A DNA stretch of 52,084 bases from Prevotella sp. (GTDB lineage Bacteria; Bacteroidota; Bacteroidia; Bacteroidales; Bacteroidaceae), in contig JAEEPF010000003.1 of NCBI GenBank assembly GCA_016284635.1, positions 1 to 52,084 on the forward strand, in the 5' to 3' direction. Each line of letters begins with the position of its first letter. Within the stretch, counting starts at the first letter, position 1. Below, one piece after another: positions 6,401-50,915 of the stretch. Position numbers and translations under genes: made by a program. Under the pieces are notes generated by a model, which saw nothing but the letters and a program-made list of their open reading frames with translations, did no database searches and was not told the DNA's origin.

Positions 6401-8632
6401 CTACTTCCTGATAATCTTCTTTCCGTTTCTGATCACGATGCCCTTGTAGTTGGCGTCCACCTTCTGTCCGGCGAGATTGTAGGAGTCGCCAGTGGTGTCG
6501 TCGTCTCTCGTCACCTCCATAATACCTGTCTCGGTAGAGACGAGGTTCACCTTGTCGATGTTGCAGCTGCCGCCAGTGACGGTGATGCGCAGTTTCTGCT
6601 GGCCTGTCTTGAGGGGATTCCTGATCTTGCCCGTCTTCACTTCGTAGGTGTCAAGGCTGCCTGTCTGCGGCACGGTGACGGTGCCCAGCGTCTTTTCGGT
6701 GCCGTCGCTCTCTACCATAACCATCGAGAACTTAGAACCCTCCACCACCGACGACACGGTAGCCTCGTAGTTGTACTTGCCTGCCTCGGTGATGTTGATG
6801 GAATACTCTGCCCAGCTGCCTGTGGCGGTATTGCCCAGAGCATAGCCGTCAGCGGTGGGAACGATTGTCATACCCTCGCCAACGAAGTAGTCTTCGGCCT
6901 CGACAGCACCCGGCAGACTGAAGGTGGGCGTGCGCTTGAAGTTCATACTCTTGATGCAGAAGCCGCCTGTGTCAACGAGCAGCGTCAGCACGTGGCGCCC
7001 TGCTGTCAACGGCTCCTTCAGCGGGCAGCGCAAGGTCTTGAACTCCTTAGAGCCACCCGTACTCGGCACCTCAGTGAGATCGGTGTAGAAGGTGAGGTTG
7101 TCAAACCCGTACTCTGCCAGATGCAACATGCCTCCGGCCTTCGTCGAGGCGACCTCCACCTCCATCGTGTAAAGACCGTCTTCCTTCACATCGACCGTAT
7201 ATTCCATCCAGGAGTTGTCCCTGGTGGCGGTGGTGGTGAACTTATCGCGGTCGACGGCGATGTTGCTGTATGCGACACCCGACATACCCTTGTCGTATTC
7301 ATCCGCATTGATGGTGCCAGGCAGTTCGGGAACGGTCTCGTTGTAAGGCGCACGCTTCTCGCCCCTGTTCACCTGTATCTGTGACAGGCGCTCATAGGTG
7401 TTTCCGTCCGTCGTGGTCACCACGGCTTTCAGCGTCTTCTTGCCCGTTGAGGTGGCTGTATATTCCGCGATGTAAGGGTCTTCCGTCATGGTGGCAATCA
7501 GTTCGCCGTCTGCATAGAGGTCGATCTTCTCGATGGTTTTCGTGGCCATCTTGGCGCGCACCTTGATGGGCATCACGTCATTCACGGCCATCTTCAGCGA
7601 GGCGGGACGGATATAGACCGAAGCCTCTTTCTTCGTGCCGGGGAGGGGACTCTTGGCGTTCTTAGCAGCGTCGGTCTGCATATATTCGCGCAGCCACGTC
7701 ATTGCGGGGCGCTCCACACCGTCACGATAGAGTCCCGAATTGGTAACCCAGGTGGCACCAAGGACATAGCCCCACAGGGTGACACCGGCACAGTAGTCGG
7801 CTTCCCACATCAGCGGGAAGATGTTCTCATACTGTTTCTTCTGCTGCTCGTCACTGGCGATATCGATATCCAGCTCCGTGATGAACATCGGCATCTGCAG
7901 GGCGTCCTGCTGCTTCTTCAGGGCGTTCTCCATGTTGCTGACGCTGATGTCGGTCACGTCGTGCGACTGGTTGCCGTAGGCATCAATCGGTGCTCCGGCA
8001 TCGCGCAGGGTGCGTACCAGAGTGATGTAGTTGTCAAGGTCCCACGTGAATGAGTTGTAGTCGTTATAGATGAGGATAGCGTCCGGCCAGCGCTCGTAGG
8101 CCATCTCGAAGGCCTTGATGAGCCAGTCGTAGCCCGTCTTGCCGCCACCGCCCAGACTCTCTTTCATCATGGGATTGCCAGCCTGGTGATTGCCGATGGC
8201 CTCGTTCACCACGTCGATCATGGGCAGGGTGTCGTATTGGTCCTTGGCGTGGTCGAACCAGTTGGTGATGGCATTGAAACGGTCTCTTGCCGACAGCGAC
8301 TCCAGCCATCCCGGGTACTGGGCGCCCCACACCAAGGCGTGGAACTTGTAGGTGAAATCGTGCTGCTGGGCGTAGCTGAAGGCCCTGTCTGCTCCGCTCC
8401 AGTTGAATGCACCACGGGTGCCCTCCACGGAGGCCCATTTCGATTCGTTCTCACACGTGATCTGGTTCCAGAGCTTGTAGTACTGTGGCACGCCGCCTCC
8501 GGCCTCCACGGTGCCTCTGGTGGTGATGTTGCCTAAAAACTTGTTGGGGTTGCTCGAAATCTGTGCGCCTGCTCCCAGCGAGAATATCCACATCCCCGCC
8601 ACCATCAGGCATCCTTTAATAATCTGTGTCAT
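6401..8632 (-). CDS. GH10 endo-1,4-beta-xylanase with C-terminal CBM6-like modules and Prevotella-type C-terminal tail
   Basis: 743 aa; acid/base motif DVVNEAI, nucleophile motif FITELDID, HALVWGAQYPGWL, NEAIGN; C-terminus YNLAGQKVDANYKGIVIRNGKKIIRK. Confidence 0.95.
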   Translation of the reverse strand: MTQIIKGCLMVAGMWIFSLGAGAQISSNPNKFLGNITTRGTVEAGGGVPQYYKLWNQITCENESKWASVEGTRGAFNWSGADRAFSYAQQHDFTYKFHALVWGAQYPGWLESLSARDRFNAITNWFDHAKDQYDTLPMIDVVNEAIGNHQAGNPMMKESLGGGGKTGYDWLIKAFEMAYERWPDAILIYNDYNSFTWDLDNYITLVRTLRDAGAPIDAYGNQSHDVTDISVSNMENALKKQQDALQMPMFITELDIDIASDEQQKKQYENIFPLMWEADYCAGVTLWGYVLGATWVTNSGLYRDGVERPAMTWLREYMQTDAAKNAKSPLPGTKKEASVYIRPASLKMAVNDVMPIKVRAKMATKTIEKIDLYADGELIATMTEDPYIAEYTATSTGKKTLKAVVTTTDGNTYERLSQIQVNRGEKRAPYNETVPELPGTINADEYDKGMSGVAYSNIAVDRDKFTTTATRDNSWMEYTVDVKEDGLYTMEVEVASTKAGGMLHLAEYGFDNLTFYTDLTEVPSTGGSKEFKTLRCPLKEPLTAGRHVLTLLVDTGGFCIKSMNFKRTPTFSLPGAVEAEDYFVGEGMTIVPTADGYALGNTATGSWAEYSINITEAGKYNYEATVSSVVEGSKFSMVMVESDGTEKTLGTVTVPQTGSLDTYEVKTGKIRNPLKTGQQKLRITVTGGSCNIDKVNLVSTETGIMEVTRDDDTTGDSYNLAGQKVDANYKGIVIRNGKKIIRK

Positions 8633-40877: not shown

Positions 40878-41489
40878 TCATTTTTGTAGAAACATTGTCT
40901 TCCGGCGGTTGTCTTTCGGACGGACGGCGAAGTGGAGCCAAATTGCGCCATAGCGGTTCCTCTCAATCAGGATCTCGTCATAGTCCTGCTTGGTCTCGTC
41001 GGCATAGTCCATCAGGATCACCGCATAACGGAGCGCCTGTTCTATACCAGCAACGCGGATATCCACAGCACAGCCCGTCAGATGATTGCTCGTCGGAGAT
41101 CCTCCCACCTTTTTATTCAGCTCCGGCGATCTATACCCTGACGTAATTATAATTGGAGCCTCCGAAGTATCTTTTTCCCCTCCTAAGTTAGGAGGGGTGC
41201 CCGTATGGGTGGGGTGGTCTGAACGAGGGAATGTCTGGCACTTCTTCAGACCACCCCTAACCCCTCCTAACTCAGGAGGGGAAACCGAGCGCTCCTCATT
41301 CCTATAAAATACATATCGCTCGTTATACCGCCTGCGCAGTTCTTCTAACCACTCGCACACTCTTTTCAGATTCTCGATGGCGACATGACTCGGGATATTA
41401 TACACCTCTGCATGCCTGCTCTTGGTTACCTCTCCGAGCGTAATGTGCTCGGAGAGGTTGATAGATTTGTTGATACTTACTTCGTTCAT
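40878..41489 (-). CDS. M15-family peptidase (intact copy) carrying an in-frame palindromic element
   Basis: MNEVSINKSINLSEHITLGEVTKSRHAEVYNIPSHVAIENLKRVCEWLEELRRRYNERYVFYRNEERSVSPPELGGVRGGLKKCQTFPRSDHPTHTGTPPNLGGEKDTSEAPIIITSGYRSPELNKKVGGSPTSNHLTGCAVDI... Start moved from track start 41600 to ATG 41489. Confidence 0.85.
   Translation of the reverse strand: MNEVSINKSINLSEHITLGEVTKSRHAEVYNIPSHVAIENLKRVCEWLEELRRRYNERYVFYRNEERSVSPPELGGVRGGLKKCQTFPRSDHPTHTGTPPNLGGEKDTSEAPIIITSGYRSPELNKKVGGSPTSNHLTGCAVDIRVAGIEQALRYAVILMDYADETKQDYDEILIERNRYGAIWLHFAVRPKDNRRKTMFLQK
41171..41283. repeat. full-length GC-rich palindromic element inside intact M15 gene
   Basis: Reverse complement of the element at 12850-12960, identical by reading. 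Confidence 0.9.
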
Positions 41490-41596
41490 AATCTCTATAG
41501 TTAAATTTTCACTTTTCAATTTCACAAATGTAATAGTGTAATAGCGTAATAGTGTCACTGCGTTGGTGGGGCCGAAGCCCCAGCCCGCAGTCATAG

Positions 41597-44347
41597 TCAA
41601 ATCATCACTGCCCCAGTCTTCTTGTACTTGGCCTTGGTGGTGCCATTCTCCACAAACTCATCCACCTTCTCTATCAGGCCATCCTTCAGCAGACGGTACA
41701 CCCTGACACGAGCAGAGGCAATTGTCTTCAAGTTGAAGCATTGCATCATATCATCGGTAGAGAATTCCTCTGGCAGACGGTTGAACGCCTCGACAGTCTT
41801 AGCCCTGCGCTGCACATTGGCAGCAGCGTCGCGCGTCTTATCGTCAAAGTACTTCTCGGCCAGTGCTCCGAAGTAATGACGTTGGCAGGCGTACTGGATG
41901 TTCACCAGCAACTCCGTGAGACGCCAGTCCACTTCGTCCGTCTCAAACTCACCGCTCCAGAACTGGCCGTCCTGATGGATATCCGCCCAATGGTGCATCA
42001 CGATAAAAGGAGCCGCGAAGTTCAGCCCATGATAGGCACAGCGCTTCAGGAGCATTTCGTCCGCCTTGGAATCGTTCTCCTTGGCGTCAGCCATACGGCG
42101 TGCCGTCCAGTCATAGAGTTCATCCACGATCTTCTGCACAGAGAGTTCGCCCTTCACGCGATCCAGTTTGAAGGCCCACGTCTTCAATCGCTCATCACTC
42201 TCGAAGTCCACCCTGCTCTCACGCTCCATCATCTCAAAGTTGGTGCCTGGCAGTGGAATACAAGTGAGGCGCGTGGCGAGACCAGAACCAAAATTCTGGG
42301 CATTCACCTTCTTCTTCAGAGCCATAGGCGTGCCTGTATAGATATAGTTCCACGTCACGATGAAGTTCTGAACCACAGAATCCAGATTGGAGTAAGCCTG
42401 ACCGTCCTCCTCATTGTGGAAGGCTTTGAGTTCCATCGACTGCTTATCAATCCACGAACCACCCTTCTGGACGGTCAGCGTATTATCCAGCTCTGTGTCG
42501 AAAGTCAGCATATGAAGCTGCATCTCAGTACCGTCAACCACCTCCACGGCGTTCACCATATCCTGTATGAACTGGGCATTTGAAGTACGAGCCGGATGCA
42601 CCCTGAACAGCGCCTTGGGCTTCTGAGGTTTCTCCTTGTTCGCACCCTTGGTCTTCATCTCCTCCTTGTAGCGGTTGATGGCTGCAATACCATCCTTATC
42701 CGCTGCCACCATAGGAGCCGCCAGGAGCTTGAACAGTCGAGTCGCAAAAGACTTACCAGATGCAGGGTCGCCAATAATCAGCGTCGAGTTATTCAGTCTG
42801 CGCAACTCCTCAGGACGATGATAGAAGCGATACGTGCATCTGGTCATCAGCGTCATCAGCAATCCTCCAGCCACGAACACTGCCGCAGGATACTGGTTCT
42901 TCTTCAGACCCTTGCAGATGTCTCGCAGCAAAGGGAAATTGTCAAAAAGACCTTCTATCTGCTCTCCCCAGTCCCAGAGCCAGCGCTCGATGTCGCTTTC
43001 CGTCACCGCCGCCGACGTCTGCGCCTTCGTGATCTCCTGATACGACTTGCCTGTGGCCTTCTGGATTGCTTCGAGCATCGCCTTGCTGGGAAGACTGCTG
43101 GCATATTTCTTCTCCTTCTGCGCCACGCAGTCAGCAGCACTCGCCACAGTTTGGCTGACATTCTCATCCCTCTCGTCGATGATCTCCTGTACCCACGGCT
43201 GCGCCTCGACGATGCGCTGCACACTGGCCTTGTCGCCATCAAGCATGAGCAACAAGTCTGTTGCGAGTTTAAGACTCTCGTTGTGGCGGTTGCTGTCTGC
43301 TGCACATGGCAGCTTGTCTGCATACCTAGCATCAATAATAGACTGTACATCATAGCCTCTCCATTTTATTGACGACAAATCTGAGTTCTTTTCTGACGAC
43401 AACTTTGACAACTTGGACAACTCTATTTCAGGCAGAACTTCTGCCTGTGGCGACATGTTGTCGCCACTAAATGTTGTCTTAGTTCTTCGCAGAGCGAAGC
43501 GGCAAAGCCGAGCGGTCTCAGTTGTCGTTTTATTACTGGCACTTGTCGTTTTCTCATCCTCAGCACCAAACTGATGAAATAGTGGTTGAGTTCTCTTCTT
43601 GCGGTACTCATCTGTGTACTTCTTGTCAAATTCTTCATTGTAGTAATTGAATAATAGTTCCTCATTAATATAAATAATGTCTTCCTCCTTGGGAGCAAAA
43701 GAGTTTCGTGTGGCATCGATGCAGCTCTGATCGGCTTTGTAGCCAAGCTTTTCAGCAAAAACTATCTGGTTATCGGCCAAATTTCCGTCCTTGATATTCG
43801 CAGTAAAGACGATGCGAATGCCCTTCTTCGAACTGGTGATGTGCGCCAGTGCTGTGCGAGCCATCAGCTCCTGATTGGCTTTCAAGGCCTCGAACACCTC
43901 CATCGGATTCTCCACGTGGTCAATATCCAGCATCACCAAACCATTCAGGTGACAGTCTGCCAACCTGCGATGGCAAAAAGGATTGCCATTGGCAGTAGGC
44001 GTTGCGTCAAATTCATAGCAACTGAAAATGAATGCCACAAGATTATCCTTCAACTCCTGCGCAAAGGCCAGCAACCTCTCCTCGTCGCTCTTCTCAAAGA
44101 ACTTCTGACGAGCACTGAGTTTTTTCAGACCTCTCTTCTTAGCCAGAAACTTCCCAAAGTCCTCATTCTTCAGCCACTTATTAATGACCTCCGAATCGTG
44201 TCGTTCCACAGCCTCTAGGATCTCCCTTCGGCTATCAATCTTCCAGGCAGTAGACGTGTTCCTCACGCTCTCCCAGAACTTCTCTCGGCTGCACCTGACA
44301 GCCTGAGAGAAGTGAGTGTTTTCCTGATAACAGAATCCCTTATTCAT
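41597..44347 (-). CDS. BT4734/BF3469-like primase N-terminal domain fused to DUF3987 helicase (VirE/VapE-like)
   Basis: Approx. 916 aa; N-terminal LVMLDIDHVENPMEVFEALKANQELMARTALAHITSSKKGIRIVFT, Walker A LIIGDPASGKSFATRLFKLL; start set to ATG 44347. Confidence 0.85.
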   Translation of the reverse strand: MNKGFCYQENTHFSQAVRCSREKFWESVRNTSTAWKIDSRREILEAVERHDSEVINKWLKNEDFGKFLAKKRGLKKLSARQKFFEKSDEERLLAFAQELKDNLVAFIFSCYEFDATPTANGNPFCHRRLADCHLNGLVMLDIDHVENPMEVFEALKANQELMARTALAHITSSKKGIRIVFTANIKDGNLADNQIVFAEKLGYKADQSCIDATRNSFAPKEEDIIYINEELLFNYYNEEFDKKYTDEYRKKRTQPLFHQFGAEDEKTTSASNKTTTETARLCRFALRRTKTTFSGDNMSPQAEVLPEIELSKLSKLSSEKNSDLSSIKWRGYDVQSIIDARYADKLPCAADSNRHNESLKLATDLLLMLDGDKASVQRIVEAQPWVQEIIDERDENVSQTVASAADCVAQKEKKYASSLPSKAMLEAIQKATGKSYQEITKAQTSAAVTESDIERWLWDWGEQIEGLFDNFPLLRDICKGLKKNQYPAAVFVAGGLLMTLMTRCTYRFYHRPEELRRLNNSTLIIGDPASGKSFATRLFKLLAAPMVAADKDGIAAINRYKEEMKTKGANKEKPQKPKALFRVHPARTSNAQFIQDMVNAVEVVDGTEMQLHMLTFDTELDNTLTVQKGGSWIDKQSMELKAFHNEEDGQAYSNLDSVVQNFIVTWNYIYTGTPMALKKKVNAQNFGSGLATRLTCIPLPGTNFEMMERESRVDFESDERLKTWAFKLDRVKGELSVQKIVDELYDWTARRMADAKENDSKADEMLLKRCAYHGLNFAAPFIVMHHWADIHQDGQFWSGEFETDEVDWRLTELLVNIQYACQRHYFGALAEKYFDDKTRDAAANVQRRAKTVEAFNRLPEEFSTDDMMQCFNLKTIASARVRVYRLLKDGLIEKVDEFVENGTTKAKYKKTGAVMI
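43380..43530. repeat. low-complexity/repeat-derived linker segment in the DUF3987 gene
   Basis: ttcgcagagcgaagcggcaaagccgagcgg (read ETARLCRFALRRT) plus tandem gacaacttNgacaact (read LSKLSKLSS); short relative ctcggctttgccgc at about 11190. Confidence 0.6.
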
Positions 44348-44376
44348 AATTATCAATTGTCAATTTTCAATTATCA
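44348..44376. repeat. AATTGATAATTG leader repeat before DUF3987 gene
   Basis: Minus strand TAATTGATAATTGAAAATTGACAATTGATAATT then ATG. Confidence 0.85.
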
Positions 44377-46496: not shown

Positions 46497-46691
46497 TGCT
46501 TTTACCTTTTTAATTATTTATTTTGTTGTTCTTTATCAGCGCGTCTGGGAGTTCGTTGAGTCCGCTCGCATCTGATTTTCGGTTGCAAAGGTATATGAGC
46601 TACAGAACTGATATAAGCTACAGAAAGTTTGTTTGTTAAAGAGTGTTTAGGCCTTCAAATCGCCTGTATTCAAAGGGCATACAAAGAAAGC

Positions 46692-46722
46692 GGCCAGACT
46701 TCATTATCTGAAATCTGACCGT
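46692..46722 (-). terminator. intrinsic terminator of the 46.7-50.9 kb operon
   Basis: Minus-strand RNA CGGUCAGAUUUCA-gauaa-UGAAGUCUGGCCG, 13 pairs incl. two G-U, followed by CUUUCUUUGU. Confidence 0.65.
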
Positions 46723-46757: not shown

Positions 46758-47885
46758 TTATGGCTTCACTCGATACTTGTCAAGCAATGGAAGCACGTTT
46801 TTGAACTTCGCAGGCATCTGTGTACTGGTGATTTTTCCCTTGTCGATGTTTGTGTATTTGTCTACGTCGTTCTTTCCAAAGAACAATTTCTGTAACTGGC
46901 TCGAACCCTTTGACTGAGGCAACAACTCATAAGAATACAGATAGCCCACAATGTTCTGCCAGGTGACGGCGGTAGCATCGCCCTCTCTACTCTCAAACAG
47001 ATCCCAAAGGGCTTTCGAGAGTTCCAGGTCTTGACCCTCTAGCACATAGTCGCCCACATTGAGCACATTTCTTATCATCTGCTTGATATTCTCTTCAGTG
47101 GCAGGCAGCACCCATTCGCCCTTCTCAATAAACGAATCAATGTTCCTCAAAACGATACGCCGTTTATCTGTAAGCGTCTTATTACGCTCATTGTTAAGCT
47201 GCTTTAGCTCTTGCATTCTTTTCTGAATCAGAGCCAGCCTATATACAAATAGGAAGAGAGCACTAATCTTCTCGTCAACACGATTGTCGTCCACAAGTGT
47301 AAAAAACAGACGACCCAGTTTGCTGGTGTTGCCAAGCTTTAGCACGCCTATTTCATATTCGAAGAAGTTTCTCAATGCCGCATAGTTGCGCCATGCTTTT
47401 CTGCATTCAGCCTCTTCATCTAACACGTCAAAGTTTATTTCGCCATCCTTCTTCTCTGTGGCAACCATCTTGCTTACAAGACTATCGAAGATGCCAGAGG
47501 CAAAGAGCTCCAGCAAGATTCTCAGTCTATACTGCTCCAGTTTCTCCAACGTAGGTGCACCAAAACACTCCGTTTCTTTCCATGTCTTGTATTCTTGTTG
47601 AGCTGCTTCTTTTAGTGCCTCATTCTCTTTCTTCTCTTTGTCGAAAATGGCCTTGAAGTCAGCATCTGCTTGTGGTGTACCAAAGTCTTTCTTGGCAACA
47701 GGTACTTCCTGCTGTGCTACTTCTGGAGTTGTCACTTCCTCGTATTCTGCCTCCTCAGCATCGTCCTTGAAGAAATTCCTGATTAAATCGTTCAGTACTC
47801 GCTCTGGCACTTGGCCAATATTTACCTCCTTGTGGTGGTCGTTGTGGATAGCACCCGGCTCATAATGATATTTCTCGCTACTCAT
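46758..47885 (-). CDS. uncharacterized protein, 375 aa, with N-terminal GAIHNDHHKEV motif
   Basis: MSSEKYHYEPGAIHNDHHKEVNIGQVPERVLNDLIRNFFKDDAEEAEYEE...; ATGA-type overlap with upstream gene. Confidence 0.75.
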   Translation of the reverse strand: MSSEKYHYEPGAIHNDHHKEVNIGQVPERVLNDLIRNFFKDDAEEAEYEEVTTPEVAQQEVPVAKKDFGTPQADADFKAIFDKEKKENEALKEAAQQEYKTWKETECFGAPTLEKLEQYRLRILLELFASGIFDSLVSKMVATEKKDGEINFDVLDEEAECRKAWRNYAALRNFFEYEIGVLKLGNTSKLGRLFFTLVDDNRVDEKISALFLFVYRLALIQKRMQELKQLNNERNKTLTDKRRIVLRNIDSFIEKGEWVLPATEENIKQMIRNVLNVGDYVLEGQDLELSKALWDLFESREGDATAVTWQNIVGYLYSYELLPQSKGSSQLQKLFFGKNDVDKYTNIDKGKITSTQMPAKFKNVLPLLDKYRVKP

Positions 47886-49129
47886 TTCTCAGGTAATTTG
47901 GGTAAGTCATCATTTTTATCAATCTCAATGTGGCGACTCTTATCATCATGGTGTGAGCCTGACGCATAGTAGTTGCCTTTTACGATGGTAGGATTGTCGC
48001 GCTTATCTAAAATCTTCTGCTTGATTTCGTTAGCACGTTCCATCCAAGCCTTAGTACCCGTCAGAAGAGAGTTTACTTGTGTGAATACATCGTAACTGGT
48101 ACCAGGCTGTAATCTCAGCAATTCAACCTCAATGTTTTCTACAGGGATTGATGCTTTGATTGCATCTGCCATTCTTTGTGCCATTTGAGCTACTTGTGAA
48201 TTCAAAGAATCAACTTTGGCTTTCATTTCCTGTAGTTCGCTCATTACTTCGTCATAGCTCTTAATGTTGTTCTTGTCGAGGAATTGTCTTAGTTCTTCAG
48301 GGAACAATGTTGTGCAAAGTTCATCTAATGTTTCATTGTCCTGAGGTGTGTCCTTTTGAATCTTTAAGAGTTCTTTCAGATGTCTGTTGATTTTAGATTT
48401 TCCATCCTCAGTATCAGATAAATCATCTATACGTTCTTTCAAGGCTGCATAGAAGATGTAAACGTACTTGTGGTTACTTTTCTGCACCCTCATATTATTT
48501 GCAATGGCAGCGAAGTCTCTGTTTCCATTATCAACAATACGTCGAATCATAACGGAATAGACCAATTTCAAGAAATCCCAGTGTCTTTCCAGCAATTTTA
48601 ACAACTCGTTCTGTTTGTCTAAGTTACTGTCGCCGAAATCTCTTCTTATTCGAATGAAAGCATGAAGCAGTGCCAGATATCCACTTTTTGTTTGATCTCC
48701 GTAGACTTTCAGCTTTCTCAATTCGTCGTTTACACGATTTTCTAATTGTTCCCAGTCTTCATCATCCGACAAACGATCATAAGTGGTCAGTATATCAATA
48801 AATTCATCCAGTCTAACACTCTCATTATTTTTTGCCCACGAAAAAGCCAAATCAACGACATCAAAGGATGGGATAACCTTTCCATGAATATCATCGAAAG
48901 CCACCATTCTATTCATGACTCCTTGAAGCCATACATTTCTCCATTTGCCAAGACAATAGTCGCGGTAAATATCCTTCAAAGAATCCAGCAGATAAATCTG
49001 ATCGTTATCTTCTGTACATGCATTTACAGATCGTTCAATGTTTATTGAATCACCTCCCCTTATTTCTCGATAACCTTCAAAACATTCTTTGATAGGTATT
49101 ATAACGTATTCATCCCAATAGTTCATCAT
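47882..49129 (-). CDS. uncharacterized coiled-coil protein, 415 aa, with C-terminal GSHHDDKSRHI motif
   Basis: ...KGNYYASGSHHDDKSRHIEIDKNDDLPKLPEK; 4-bp overlap with next gene. Confidence 0.75.
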   Translation of the reverse strand: MMNYWDEYVIIPIKECFEGYREIRGGDSINIERSVNACTEDNDQIYLLDSLKDIYRDYCLGKWRNVWLQGVMNRMVAFDDIHGKVIPSFDVVDLAFSWAKNNESVRLDEFIDILTTYDRLSDDEDWEQLENRVNDELRKLKVYGDQTKSGYLALLHAFIRIRRDFGDSNLDKQNELLKLLERHWDFLKLVYSVMIRRIVDNGNRDFAAIANNMRVQKSNHKYVYIFYAALKERIDDLSDTEDGKSKINRHLKELLKIQKDTPQDNETLDELCTTLFPEELRQFLDKNNIKSYDEVMSELQEMKAKVDSLNSQVAQMAQRMADAIKASIPVENIEVELLRLQPGTSYDVFTQVNSLLTGTKAWMERANEIKQKILDKRDNPTIVKGNYYASGSHHDDKSRHIEIDKNDDLPKLPEK

Positions 49130-49131
49130 AA

Positions 49132-49785
49132 TTAGAATTTATCAATTAGTTTTTGAGCCCCATCCTCATCGCTATTCACATTCAGATGTTTGCTGTGGTC
49201 ATTATGTTGAGCCCCATCCTCATATTTGTGTTCAATCTTCACACTTGTTGGTTTCTTCTGAGGTTCAATAAAATCAGTAAGGATTCCTGAAATGGCTTCC
49301 TCATCGCCTTTACTTGGATTACGCACCAACTCACGAAGCATCATCTTAATAGCTTTTGCATCTTGAATGTCACAAGCGTCTTTGGCATAATTAGCAATGA
49401 CAGGTATAGCCAATAGTGAATCTAACGGCATCTCAATGGGCTTACCTTCATCCTCTTCCATTTCTGGAGGCAATGGTGGGTTCTCATAATAGTCAACCAA
49501 AGCCGTCAAATTCTTATTTTTATTAACCAACTCGTCATTGGCCTTTTTCATAATAGACAACTGCGATTCCAGACCCTCAATTTTCTCTTGTAATGATGAG
49601 ATGATGTTATCTTTTTGACGGATAACAGTCTCTTTCATTATCTCCTGAGTCACCTTGATAGCATGGCCAACTTTTTTGTTAGCGTATGCCTCCATCTGGA
49701 GCTTTGGGTCAAGTTCTTGCTTACTTGGCTGCAAGCCTTCTACCTCTTTGCGAAGTATGTCAAAAAACTCTTTGTCAGCTTTCAT
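49132..49785 (-). CDS. uncharacterized coiled-coil protein, 217 aa, with C-terminal GAQHNDHSKHL motif
   Basis: ...VKIEHKYEDGAQHNDHSKHLNVNSDEDGAQKLIDKF. Confidence 0.75.
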   Translation of the reverse strand: MKADKEFFDILRKEVEGLQPSKQELDPKLQMEAYANKKVGHAIKVTQEIMKETVIRQKDNIISSLQEKIEGLESQLSIMKKANDELVNKNKNLTALVDYYENPPLPPEMEEDEGKPIEMPLDSLLAIPVIANYAKDACDIQDAKAIKMMLRELVRNPSKGDEEAISGILTDFIEPQKKPTSVKIEHKYEDGAQHNDHSKHLNVNSDEDGAQKLIDKF

Positions 49786-49799
49786 CTTCCACTTTTCTT

Positions 49800-50471
49800 T
49801 TAAAAGGGTAAACTATCTGGGTCATATTCCAAAAGAACTTGATCAGAACCTATTAGCGTTGCTTGCGGCTCAAATCTTTTCTCTTCGATGACGTCTATCA
49901 GCTTCAATTTCTCTTCCTTTGATGGGAAAAGAGCTAATAACTCGCGTATAGTGTCCTGCTCATAATCTTCTGTAATATCTTTCCAGTCCCAAAGAGTTTG
50001 GGTAAGTTCTGCTACAGGATGGGGATGGGGAATAAGGTCACTATTGTATCTTGCTGTAATAGAATGAGCCATTGCATCAAACGCGCCAAAATAGTCCTCA
50101 CCATAGTCCTGCCCCTCCATTAGTTGAAGCACATAATCAATCTTCTCAGGGCGATCCTCTTGAAGATATAAAATGGCATATACCATCGACATCACAAGAT
50201 TAGCCGCATATCTCCAGCCCATATTGCCTTTTGCTATCCACAGCCATTCTCTGACATTAAGCTCAGGGTGAGGGTCATACATCGCCAACGTGGCAATATA
50301 ATATGCCTCGTTGAAAGCTTTCTCTGCATCGAACTTGAAATAATAAGGCCTATCCTTTACTCGCAGATATACCTTATACAGTTCTTTATTCAAATCGTCG
50401 CTACGCAGAAAGTCATCCAGCGTGCGACGATCAGTATATACAAAATCTCGCGGTAGTTTTTCTATCTTCAT
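49800..50471 (-). CDS. uncharacterized protein, 223 aa
   Basis: Intact ORF in tight operon spacing: MKIEKLPRDFVYTDRRTLDDFLRSDDLNKELYKVYLRVKDRPYYFKFDAEKAFNEAYYIA... Confidence 0.7.
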   Translation of the reverse strand: MKIEKLPRDFVYTDRRTLDDFLRSDDLNKELYKVYLRVKDRPYYFKFDAEKAFNEAYYIATLAMYDPHPELNVREWLWIAKGNMGWRYAANLVMSMVYAILYLQEDRPEKIDYVLQLMEGQDYGEDYFGAFDAMAHSITARYNSDLIPHPHPVAELTQTLWDWKDITEDYEQDTIRELLALFPSKEEKLKLIDVIEEKRFEPQATLIGSDQVLLEYDPDSLPF

Positions 50472-50510
50472 ATTATGCTACCTTGTTGAATTGTTCGTTT
50501 CCGTAAATAA

Positions 50511-50915
50511 TCAATAAAAGTGTCCGTATCTGATTTCAAACACATTTTTGTTGCCGTTCTCGCCAAAGGGTATCTTCGTGCGAGTAACAAATGTTCCAGA
50601 GTGATTGACCCATACGTGTGGTTCAATGAAAGCGATATATCCCCATTCATCCTCATCGTCCTCACGAAACTCATACATGTGAAAACCTTTGGGGCATTCC
50701 TTGTGGTCAAATCTTTGGTCAAGATACCACCCACGAATGCAATGCTTCCTGCCGTCAGCAGTCTCAATGCCGATGTAGTATTTGTCGAAAGATTGGAGGA
50801 ACTTAATCATACTTACATCGCCAATATGGCTCTCAAATTCGTGTCTGTAAACGTGCGCCAAATCATCAACTTGATAGGCTTGTTGTCCTCGAATAGCTGC
50901 TTCAACTATATACAA
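50511..50915 (-). CDS. LPD28-like (large polyvalent protein-associated domain) stand-alone protein, possibly 5'-truncated
   Basis: KHCIRGWYLDQRFDHKECPKGFHMYEFREDDEDEWGYIAFIEPHVWVNHSGTFVTRTKIPF resembles the D/R-x-xxLPxGxxxYDLRxxDDD...VxVNHxGTxxT pattern; only a TTG start, with an in-frame stop just upstream. Confidence 0.45.
   Translation of the reverse strand: MYIVEAAIRGQQAYQVDDLAHVYRHEFESHIGDVSMIKFLQSFDKYYIGIETADGRKHCIRGWYLDQRFDHKECPKGFHMYEFREDDEDEWGYIAFIEPHVWVNHSGTFVTRTKIPFGENGNKNVFEIRYGHFY

Follow-up and report, generated by a model that had tools for sequence, protein, structure and literature searches.

What is the role of a short motif that stands at the C-terminus of two proteins and at the N-terminus of a third, when the three are encoded by consecutive genes? 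The question is raised by a locus of Prevotella sp. on contig JAEEPF010000003.1, whose first 52,084 nucleotides were analysed and are here called the window. The genes lie on the minus strand in the order P0004, P0003, P0002, P0001, and the last three encode a motif that we term the HxD tag. The reading that we favour, and consider likely, is that this motif belongs to a set of homotypic docking tags, which would hold an upstream protein (A) and its downstream partner (B) together as one functional unit, in place of covalent fusion, in a modular and probably defence-related family.

Each of P0001, P0002 and P0003 has a single match to the pattern Y..G[AS].H[ND]D, and when all three proteins were shuffled for 200,000 rounds, any one of them matched it only three times; the motif is present where the preliminary description of the locus had placed it, and is far from chance. 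The genes had also been described as overlapping or nearly abutting and as sharing a single terminator, and this is what we see, with a 4-nt overlap between P0002 and P0001, gaps of 2 nt between P0003 and P0002 and of 14 nt between P0004 and P0003, and one terminator-like hairpin past the end of the operon (Table 1). The four genes (46758-50471) clearly form one unit, while the fifth gene that had been counted in the operon, encoding an LPD28-domain protein, is untagged and only loosely attached. A protein similar to this LPD28 protein is encoded upstream of an A gene of another tag class (TMTG, see below) at locus L156. An insertion sequence transposase-like open reading frame (ORF), read by eye, lies beside the operon at the contig end (50991-52037).

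We searched 299 genomes of the genus with a hidden Markov model (HMM) of 27 positions, built from HxD-type tags. At E ≤ 1e-3 it gave 27 matches in 13 genomes, and every one of them lay in neighbouring genes about 100 nt apart, with the tag at the C-terminus of the first gene product and at the N-terminus of the second; the window has a triple. Since most of the training sequences of the model came from these loci, what is informative here is the absence of orphans. No orphan HxD tag was found among the matches at this threshold in these genomes, and the next match had an E-value of 0.002. A motif scattered at random without co-occurrence, or genes that are never neighbours, had been named in advance as observations contrary to a common unit; instead, there were no orphan tags and the tagged genes were always adjacent, which supports the proposal that the three proteins belong together.

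The asymmetry between N- and C-terminus, seen first in the window, turns out to be the rule of the system rather than an oddity of one operon. A, the upstream protein, has an all-helical body, a coiled coil and a C-terminal tag, and B, the downstream protein, has an N-terminal tag followed by one of about 19 unrelated bodies. Through relatives of P0001 and P0002 we found further classes of tag in the same architecture, about 13 in all, of which HxD is one; the others, under names coined in this analysis, are NVNG, QITDK, TYND, LEQNN, GDYV, VFNGP, NYGPN, TMTG, DVIxGG/GDV, KVG, GDK-QAG and SPGN. The H(N/D)D consensus first reported is thus real within the locus, but other loci use other classes. 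The shared tag is about 20 residues long (range about 10-37), enriched in G, N, H, V and I and depleted in W, C, F, R and L.

In order to avoid circularity, 36 loci were selected with a profile of the A body from which the tag region had been removed, and the ORF that follows was accepted as B on position alone. The end of A scored a mean of 52.9 against the start of its own B, compared with 27.9 against the other B proteins, and the observed sum was reached in none of 20,000 permutations. In a 10 × 10 matrix of classes every row and every column was highest on the diagonal, and when all 192 adjacent gene pairs of the first loci were scanned blind, the tag pairs ranked top. The P0002/P0001 pair of the window, with a score of 33, is among the weaker pairs, and the class HMM, more than the pair score, is what places it in the HxD class. 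We regard it as very probable that the tags join A to the B of the same locus.

Closely similar bodies were found with different tags. Among B bodies with 87-93% identity, the tag is HxD in L062 and NYGPN in L176, or HxD in L069 and NVNG in L145, and A bodies of 60-82% identity also bear different tags. A tree of A bodies contains 13 changes of tag class among 38 rows, with several long branches and uncertain deep placements. The closest relative of P0001, at L034, is 81% identical from residue 42 and has an NYGPN tag instead of HxD, and its partner, two genes upstream, is NYGPN-tagged as well. When the DNA of L062 and L176 is compared, the A body is mostly 85-97% identical, identity falls through the coiled-coil region to about 38% at the junction, and the B body is 90-100% identical; this dip indicates that a junction cassette has been exchanged. 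The A gene of L176 (5995-7386), which was used in its existing form, is broken into two ORFs, its tag and B partner being intact; the break may reflect either a sequencing error or decay. Codons at identical residues of the A and B tags agree at a frequency of 0.408, against 0.389 expected from codon usage (47 loci), and tag DNA within loci is only 56% identical. Agreement at the chance level shows that the two tags have long had separate histories as DNA and that their likeness is maintained in the proteins, and argues against both a recent duplication and a mere recombination site.

Further evidence comes from 23 single-ORF relatives, in which the C-terminal or middle domain of B is fused to other N-terminal parts; none of the 23 was matched by any class HMM. 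In 44 of the 52 tagged loci and 18 of the 23 fused loci, the downstream 7 kb contain a primase-helicase gene on the same strand, the exceptions being mostly contig ends. Because the fused relatives are tagless and occupy the same genomic slot, they provide Rosetta-stone evidence that the tags replace a covalent link. At the level of sequence, then, the matching of A-end and B-start tags, their division into about 13 classes, their swapping, their conservation as proteins and the tagless fusions can be taken as established, and on this basis the tags would be homotypic docking elements joining A and B. Single-ORF proteins of about 370-450 aa in the same slot (L044-L065) have common N-terminal and middle domains and variable ends, and their neighbours, read by eye, apparently include RhuM-like, DUF1016-like, AAA and HEPN/MNT-like genes.

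In the TMTG class there are two copies of the tag in B and one in A. The middle protein of L156 has no recognisable body; tandem TMTG tags at its N-terminus match A, and another tag, of a different kind, towards its C-terminus matches the N-terminal region of a third protein, with a score of 60 compared with 40 at the 99% shuffle level. This protein would be a two-tagged adaptor in a three-protein chain at this one locus, and L156 was the only clear case when relays beyond A-B were sought in the tagged loci. In the window, two tagged proteins are encoded upstream of B. The first half of a single gene at L076 (8471-9640) matches nearly full-length P0004 with 28% identity (E = 7e-25), and the second half, with a coiled coil and a C-terminal tag, is P0003-like as read by eye. 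P0004 and P0003 together thus appear to correspond to what is one A protein elsewhere, split in the window.

The structural model of P0002 is all-helical, with a long helix and a small helical domain, and the tag is disordered, with a predicted local distance difference test (pLDDT) score below 50 over residues 382-415; P0002 is accordingly, by prediction, a helical scaffold-like protein. The model of P0001 is mostly helical and its tag is mostly of low confidence (disordered) in the monomer. The A bodies fall into about five to seven families and the 59 tagged B proteins into about 19 unrelated clusters; we rejected the notion of a single diverged domain behind all B bodies, as only one pair of clusters was linked when profiles were compared. 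In the A/B proteins scanned, HIRAN, in one fused relative, was the sole family above the cut-off; L061 gave a weak HARE-HTH match, and 32 A/B representatives scanned jointly gave one sub-threshold HIRAN match. These matches offer a hint of DNA-related sensing. Rfam gave no match.

Genes of restriction and abortive infection (Abi) families are frequent on the upstream side. The 51 genes upstream of A include members of the EcoRI, MvaI/BcnI, Vsr, C5 and N6/N4 methylase, Eco57I and HSDR families, and also of ResIII, GmrSD, AbiH and AlbA_2, while 22 control genes upstream of primase modules without an A/B pair, in the genome of the window, showed no restriction or Abi families, only a zeta toxin. 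In rumen Prevotella, type II restriction genes of the EcoRI, MvaI/BcnI and Vsr families directly adjoin A/B pairs. The suggestion of an undescribed system in defence-type surroundings is supported. PADLOC gave no convincing match for the window proteins or the 32 representatives (best E about 0.001), and we did not find this arrangement in Bacteroidota described in the limited collection of literature searched. Past the operon, the window holds a peptidase M15 gene together with the 919-aa BT4734-like_N primase-helicase-type gene (40878-44356), and its genome has about 14 BT4734-type modules on different contigs, most of them without an A/B pair. The BT4734-type module seems to be an uncharacterised mobile unit that includes antirepressor and lysin-like genes.

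The P0002 family profile matched 42 of 398 genomes of the genus; other genomes of the order gave weak partial matches only, in four genomes, and a phylum sample searched with A4 added no further genome. The contig search for A relatives used a closer subset of the A alignment. Named relatives are mostly rumen Prevotella, including the cultured MA2016 (locus L162) and HUN156 (locus L169). P0002 had one weak partial match in phages and none in plasmids, P0001 had no match in phages, and in viral contigs neither A3 nor P0004 was matched and the B C-terminal domain had one weak partial match.

Table 1. Positions of the features discussed, in the window unless another locus is named
Feature	Position	Strand	Description
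P0001 (B protein, 375 aa)	46758..47885	-	No Pfam, NCBIfam, PHROG or PADLOC family; N-terminal tag, acidic linker, middle helical domain (~70-235), C-terminal domain (~235-372), domain limits set from partial matches in other genomes
HxD-class tag of P0001	47814..47870	-	Residues 6-24 (YHYEPGAIHNDHHKEVNIG)
P0002 (A protein, 415 aa)	47882..49129	-	All-helical body with long helix (292-325) and small helical domain (330-378); C-terminal tag
HxD-class tag of P0002	47921..47974	-	Residues 386-403 (NYYASGSHHDDKSRHIEI)
P0003 (217 aa)	49132..49785	-	Coiled coil, short helical region, C-terminal tag
HxD-class tag of P0003	49177..49230	-	Residues 186-203 (HKYEDGAQHNDHSKHLNV)
P0004 (223 aa)	49800..50471	-	Untagged; putative N-terminal half of split A protein
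Terminator-like hairpin	46691..46721	-	Past operon end
LPD28-domain protein	50511..50915	-	TTG start, untagged; upstream of P0004; operon membership uncertain
919-aa primase-helicase-type protein	41597..44356	-	BT4734-like_N (PF08800); usual downstream neighbour of A/B loci
L156 adaptor and next gene	6428-6865 and 6916-7578		Positions in L156

Could the tags act in some way other than by joining two proteins into a signalling or defence unit? A repeated junction sequence might serve purely as a recombination site, with no protein role, and the exchange of junction cassettes as a unit would suit such an effect at the DNA level; the codon test, however, leads us to reject the DNA-repeat explanation, the tag DNA within loci is too little alike, and the fused relatives stand in the same slot without tags, so that we consider it extremely improbable. 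Of the functions named in the preliminary description, common assembly or docking is supported, and metal or nucleic-acid binding is not. The invariance of Y, H and D within the HxD class alignment is what such a binding motif would predict, but the equivalent tags of the other classes lack the conserved H and D and show no H-x-D signature, and a role of the tags in binding metal or nucleic acid is for this reason rejected as very unlikely.

More weight must be given to static docking peptides, which would form a heterodimer or pair by β-augmentation, with no amyloid and no signalling, and would assemble subunits for the primase-helicase mobile element, for example its initiator, loader or regulator. 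The constancy of the downstream primase-helicase gene in tagged and fused loci, the fact that the BT4734-like neighbour family is a primase family (PMC5862659) and the predicted scaffold-like nature of P0002 are in line with this explanation. Against it, most BT4734-type modules in the genome of the window lack an A/B pair, about 19 unrelated clusters of B bodies would be unusual for a core replication subunit, and restriction and Abi genes abound upstream; we therefore think static docking rather unlikely. That the A/B unit is defence-related seems to us reasonably probable, and several points weigh against our preferred reading of homotypic tags in a defence-related family. The evidence for defence from context is indirect, the upstream control is small, unmatched and from one genome, and the primase-helicase neighbour is equally constant, so that the unit could serve replication of the element instead. 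Neither the P0001 nor the P0002 model matched the PDB in a Foldseek search at E ≤ 0.001, and Pfam, NCBIfam, PHROGs and PADLOC gave no function for the A/B bodies scanned. The functional orientation, in which A senses and B acts, is a guess. Finally, co-resident loci used different classes in 9 of 9 genomes, but this has a chance probability of P = 0.27, and we accordingly do not claim that they must do so.

How does this arrangement compare with known systems? Modular polyketide synthases have docking domains in which a C-terminal element docks to an N-terminal one on the protein that follows, in orthogonal classes, much as the proteins of successive genes would pair here; the docking partners of the synthases are not copies of one motif, however, whereas the A/B tags are homotypic, and there are no biosynthetic genes at the A/B loci. 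In the fungal HET-S/NWD2 system of amyloid signalling, the NOD-like receptor (NLR) has a single copy of the motif. HET-s has two pseudo-repeats (PMC7889193), and the presence of two tag copies in one partner recalls the TMTG class, but the A/B proteins have no seen sequence relation to this system and no HeLo-type or NLR domain.

The nearest likeness is to the bacterial amyloid signalling sequences (BASS) 1-10 of Bell/NLR gene pairs (Dyrka et al. 2020, via PMC7889193 and PMC8086366), which are known mainly from filamentous actinobacteria and cyanobacteria. The systems share a short tag (about 20-40 aa), placed at the C-terminus of one protein and at the N-terminus of the other, with their genes adjacent or overlapping; the tags fall into many sequence classes, are matched within each pair and, in some classes, are repeated on one side. 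The A/B pairs, which were compared with BASS by description, are from Prevotella, and differ in having no NLR or P-loop and, in nearly all cases, no Bell-type membrane helix: there was no NACHT or NB-ARC match and no Walker A motif in 52 A or 59 B proteins, and a hydrophobic 19-residue window of ≥1.6 was found in only 3 of the 52 A and 1 of the 59 B proteins, and in none of P0001-P0004. With these two defining features wanting, we do not file the A/B system as a member of BASS. Effector-associated domains (EADs) are terminal homotypic adaptors that plug many effectors into a common core in conflict systems (Kaur et al., PMC8195603), and the A/B tags follow the same logic; EADs, however, are small, mostly helical folded domains, whereas the shared element here is about 20 residues long, is disordered in monomer models and has no predicted structure.

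If the tags are indeed homotypic docking elements, A would probably be the sensing or scaffold half, given its helical body and coiled coil and its relatives with HIRAN or weak HARE-HTH matches, and B probably the output half, which would be interchangeable. The tags probably lack order until they come together, and may then pair as β-strands in the manner of amyloid signalling motifs. The architecture, the diversity of classes, the asymmetry in copy number, the composition and the disorder in monomer models all point to such amyloid-like pairing, which we put forward as a possibility somewhat short of even. In the window, the two tagged A proteins, namely the split P0004/P0003 and P0002, would recruit one B (P0001), and the unit would probably serve the defence of, or conflict over, the mobile primase-helicase element. 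Since the two tags lie together where the genes meet, one short recombination event could swap both, so that new pairs would spread with their match kept.

A bolder and more doubtful proposal is that the A/B pairs are NLR-free prion-like relays in unicellular Bacteroidota, with at least 13 classes connecting sensors to about 19 kinds of output, at one locus by way of the two-tagged adaptor, and diversifying by exchange of junction cassettes. If true, this would answer in the affirmative the question left open in PMC7889193, whether bacterial signalling amyloids exist outside NLR pathways. About 13 apparently orthogonal homotypic tags in many A/B pairs, with the tagless fused forms as built-in controls, make NLR-independent amyloid signalling in bacteria directly testable, and the junction cassette gives a simple genetic account of how partners may change without loss of the match. 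For the rumen-type Prevotella themselves, dozens of uncharacterised proteins are hereby marked as parts of one probable defence module.

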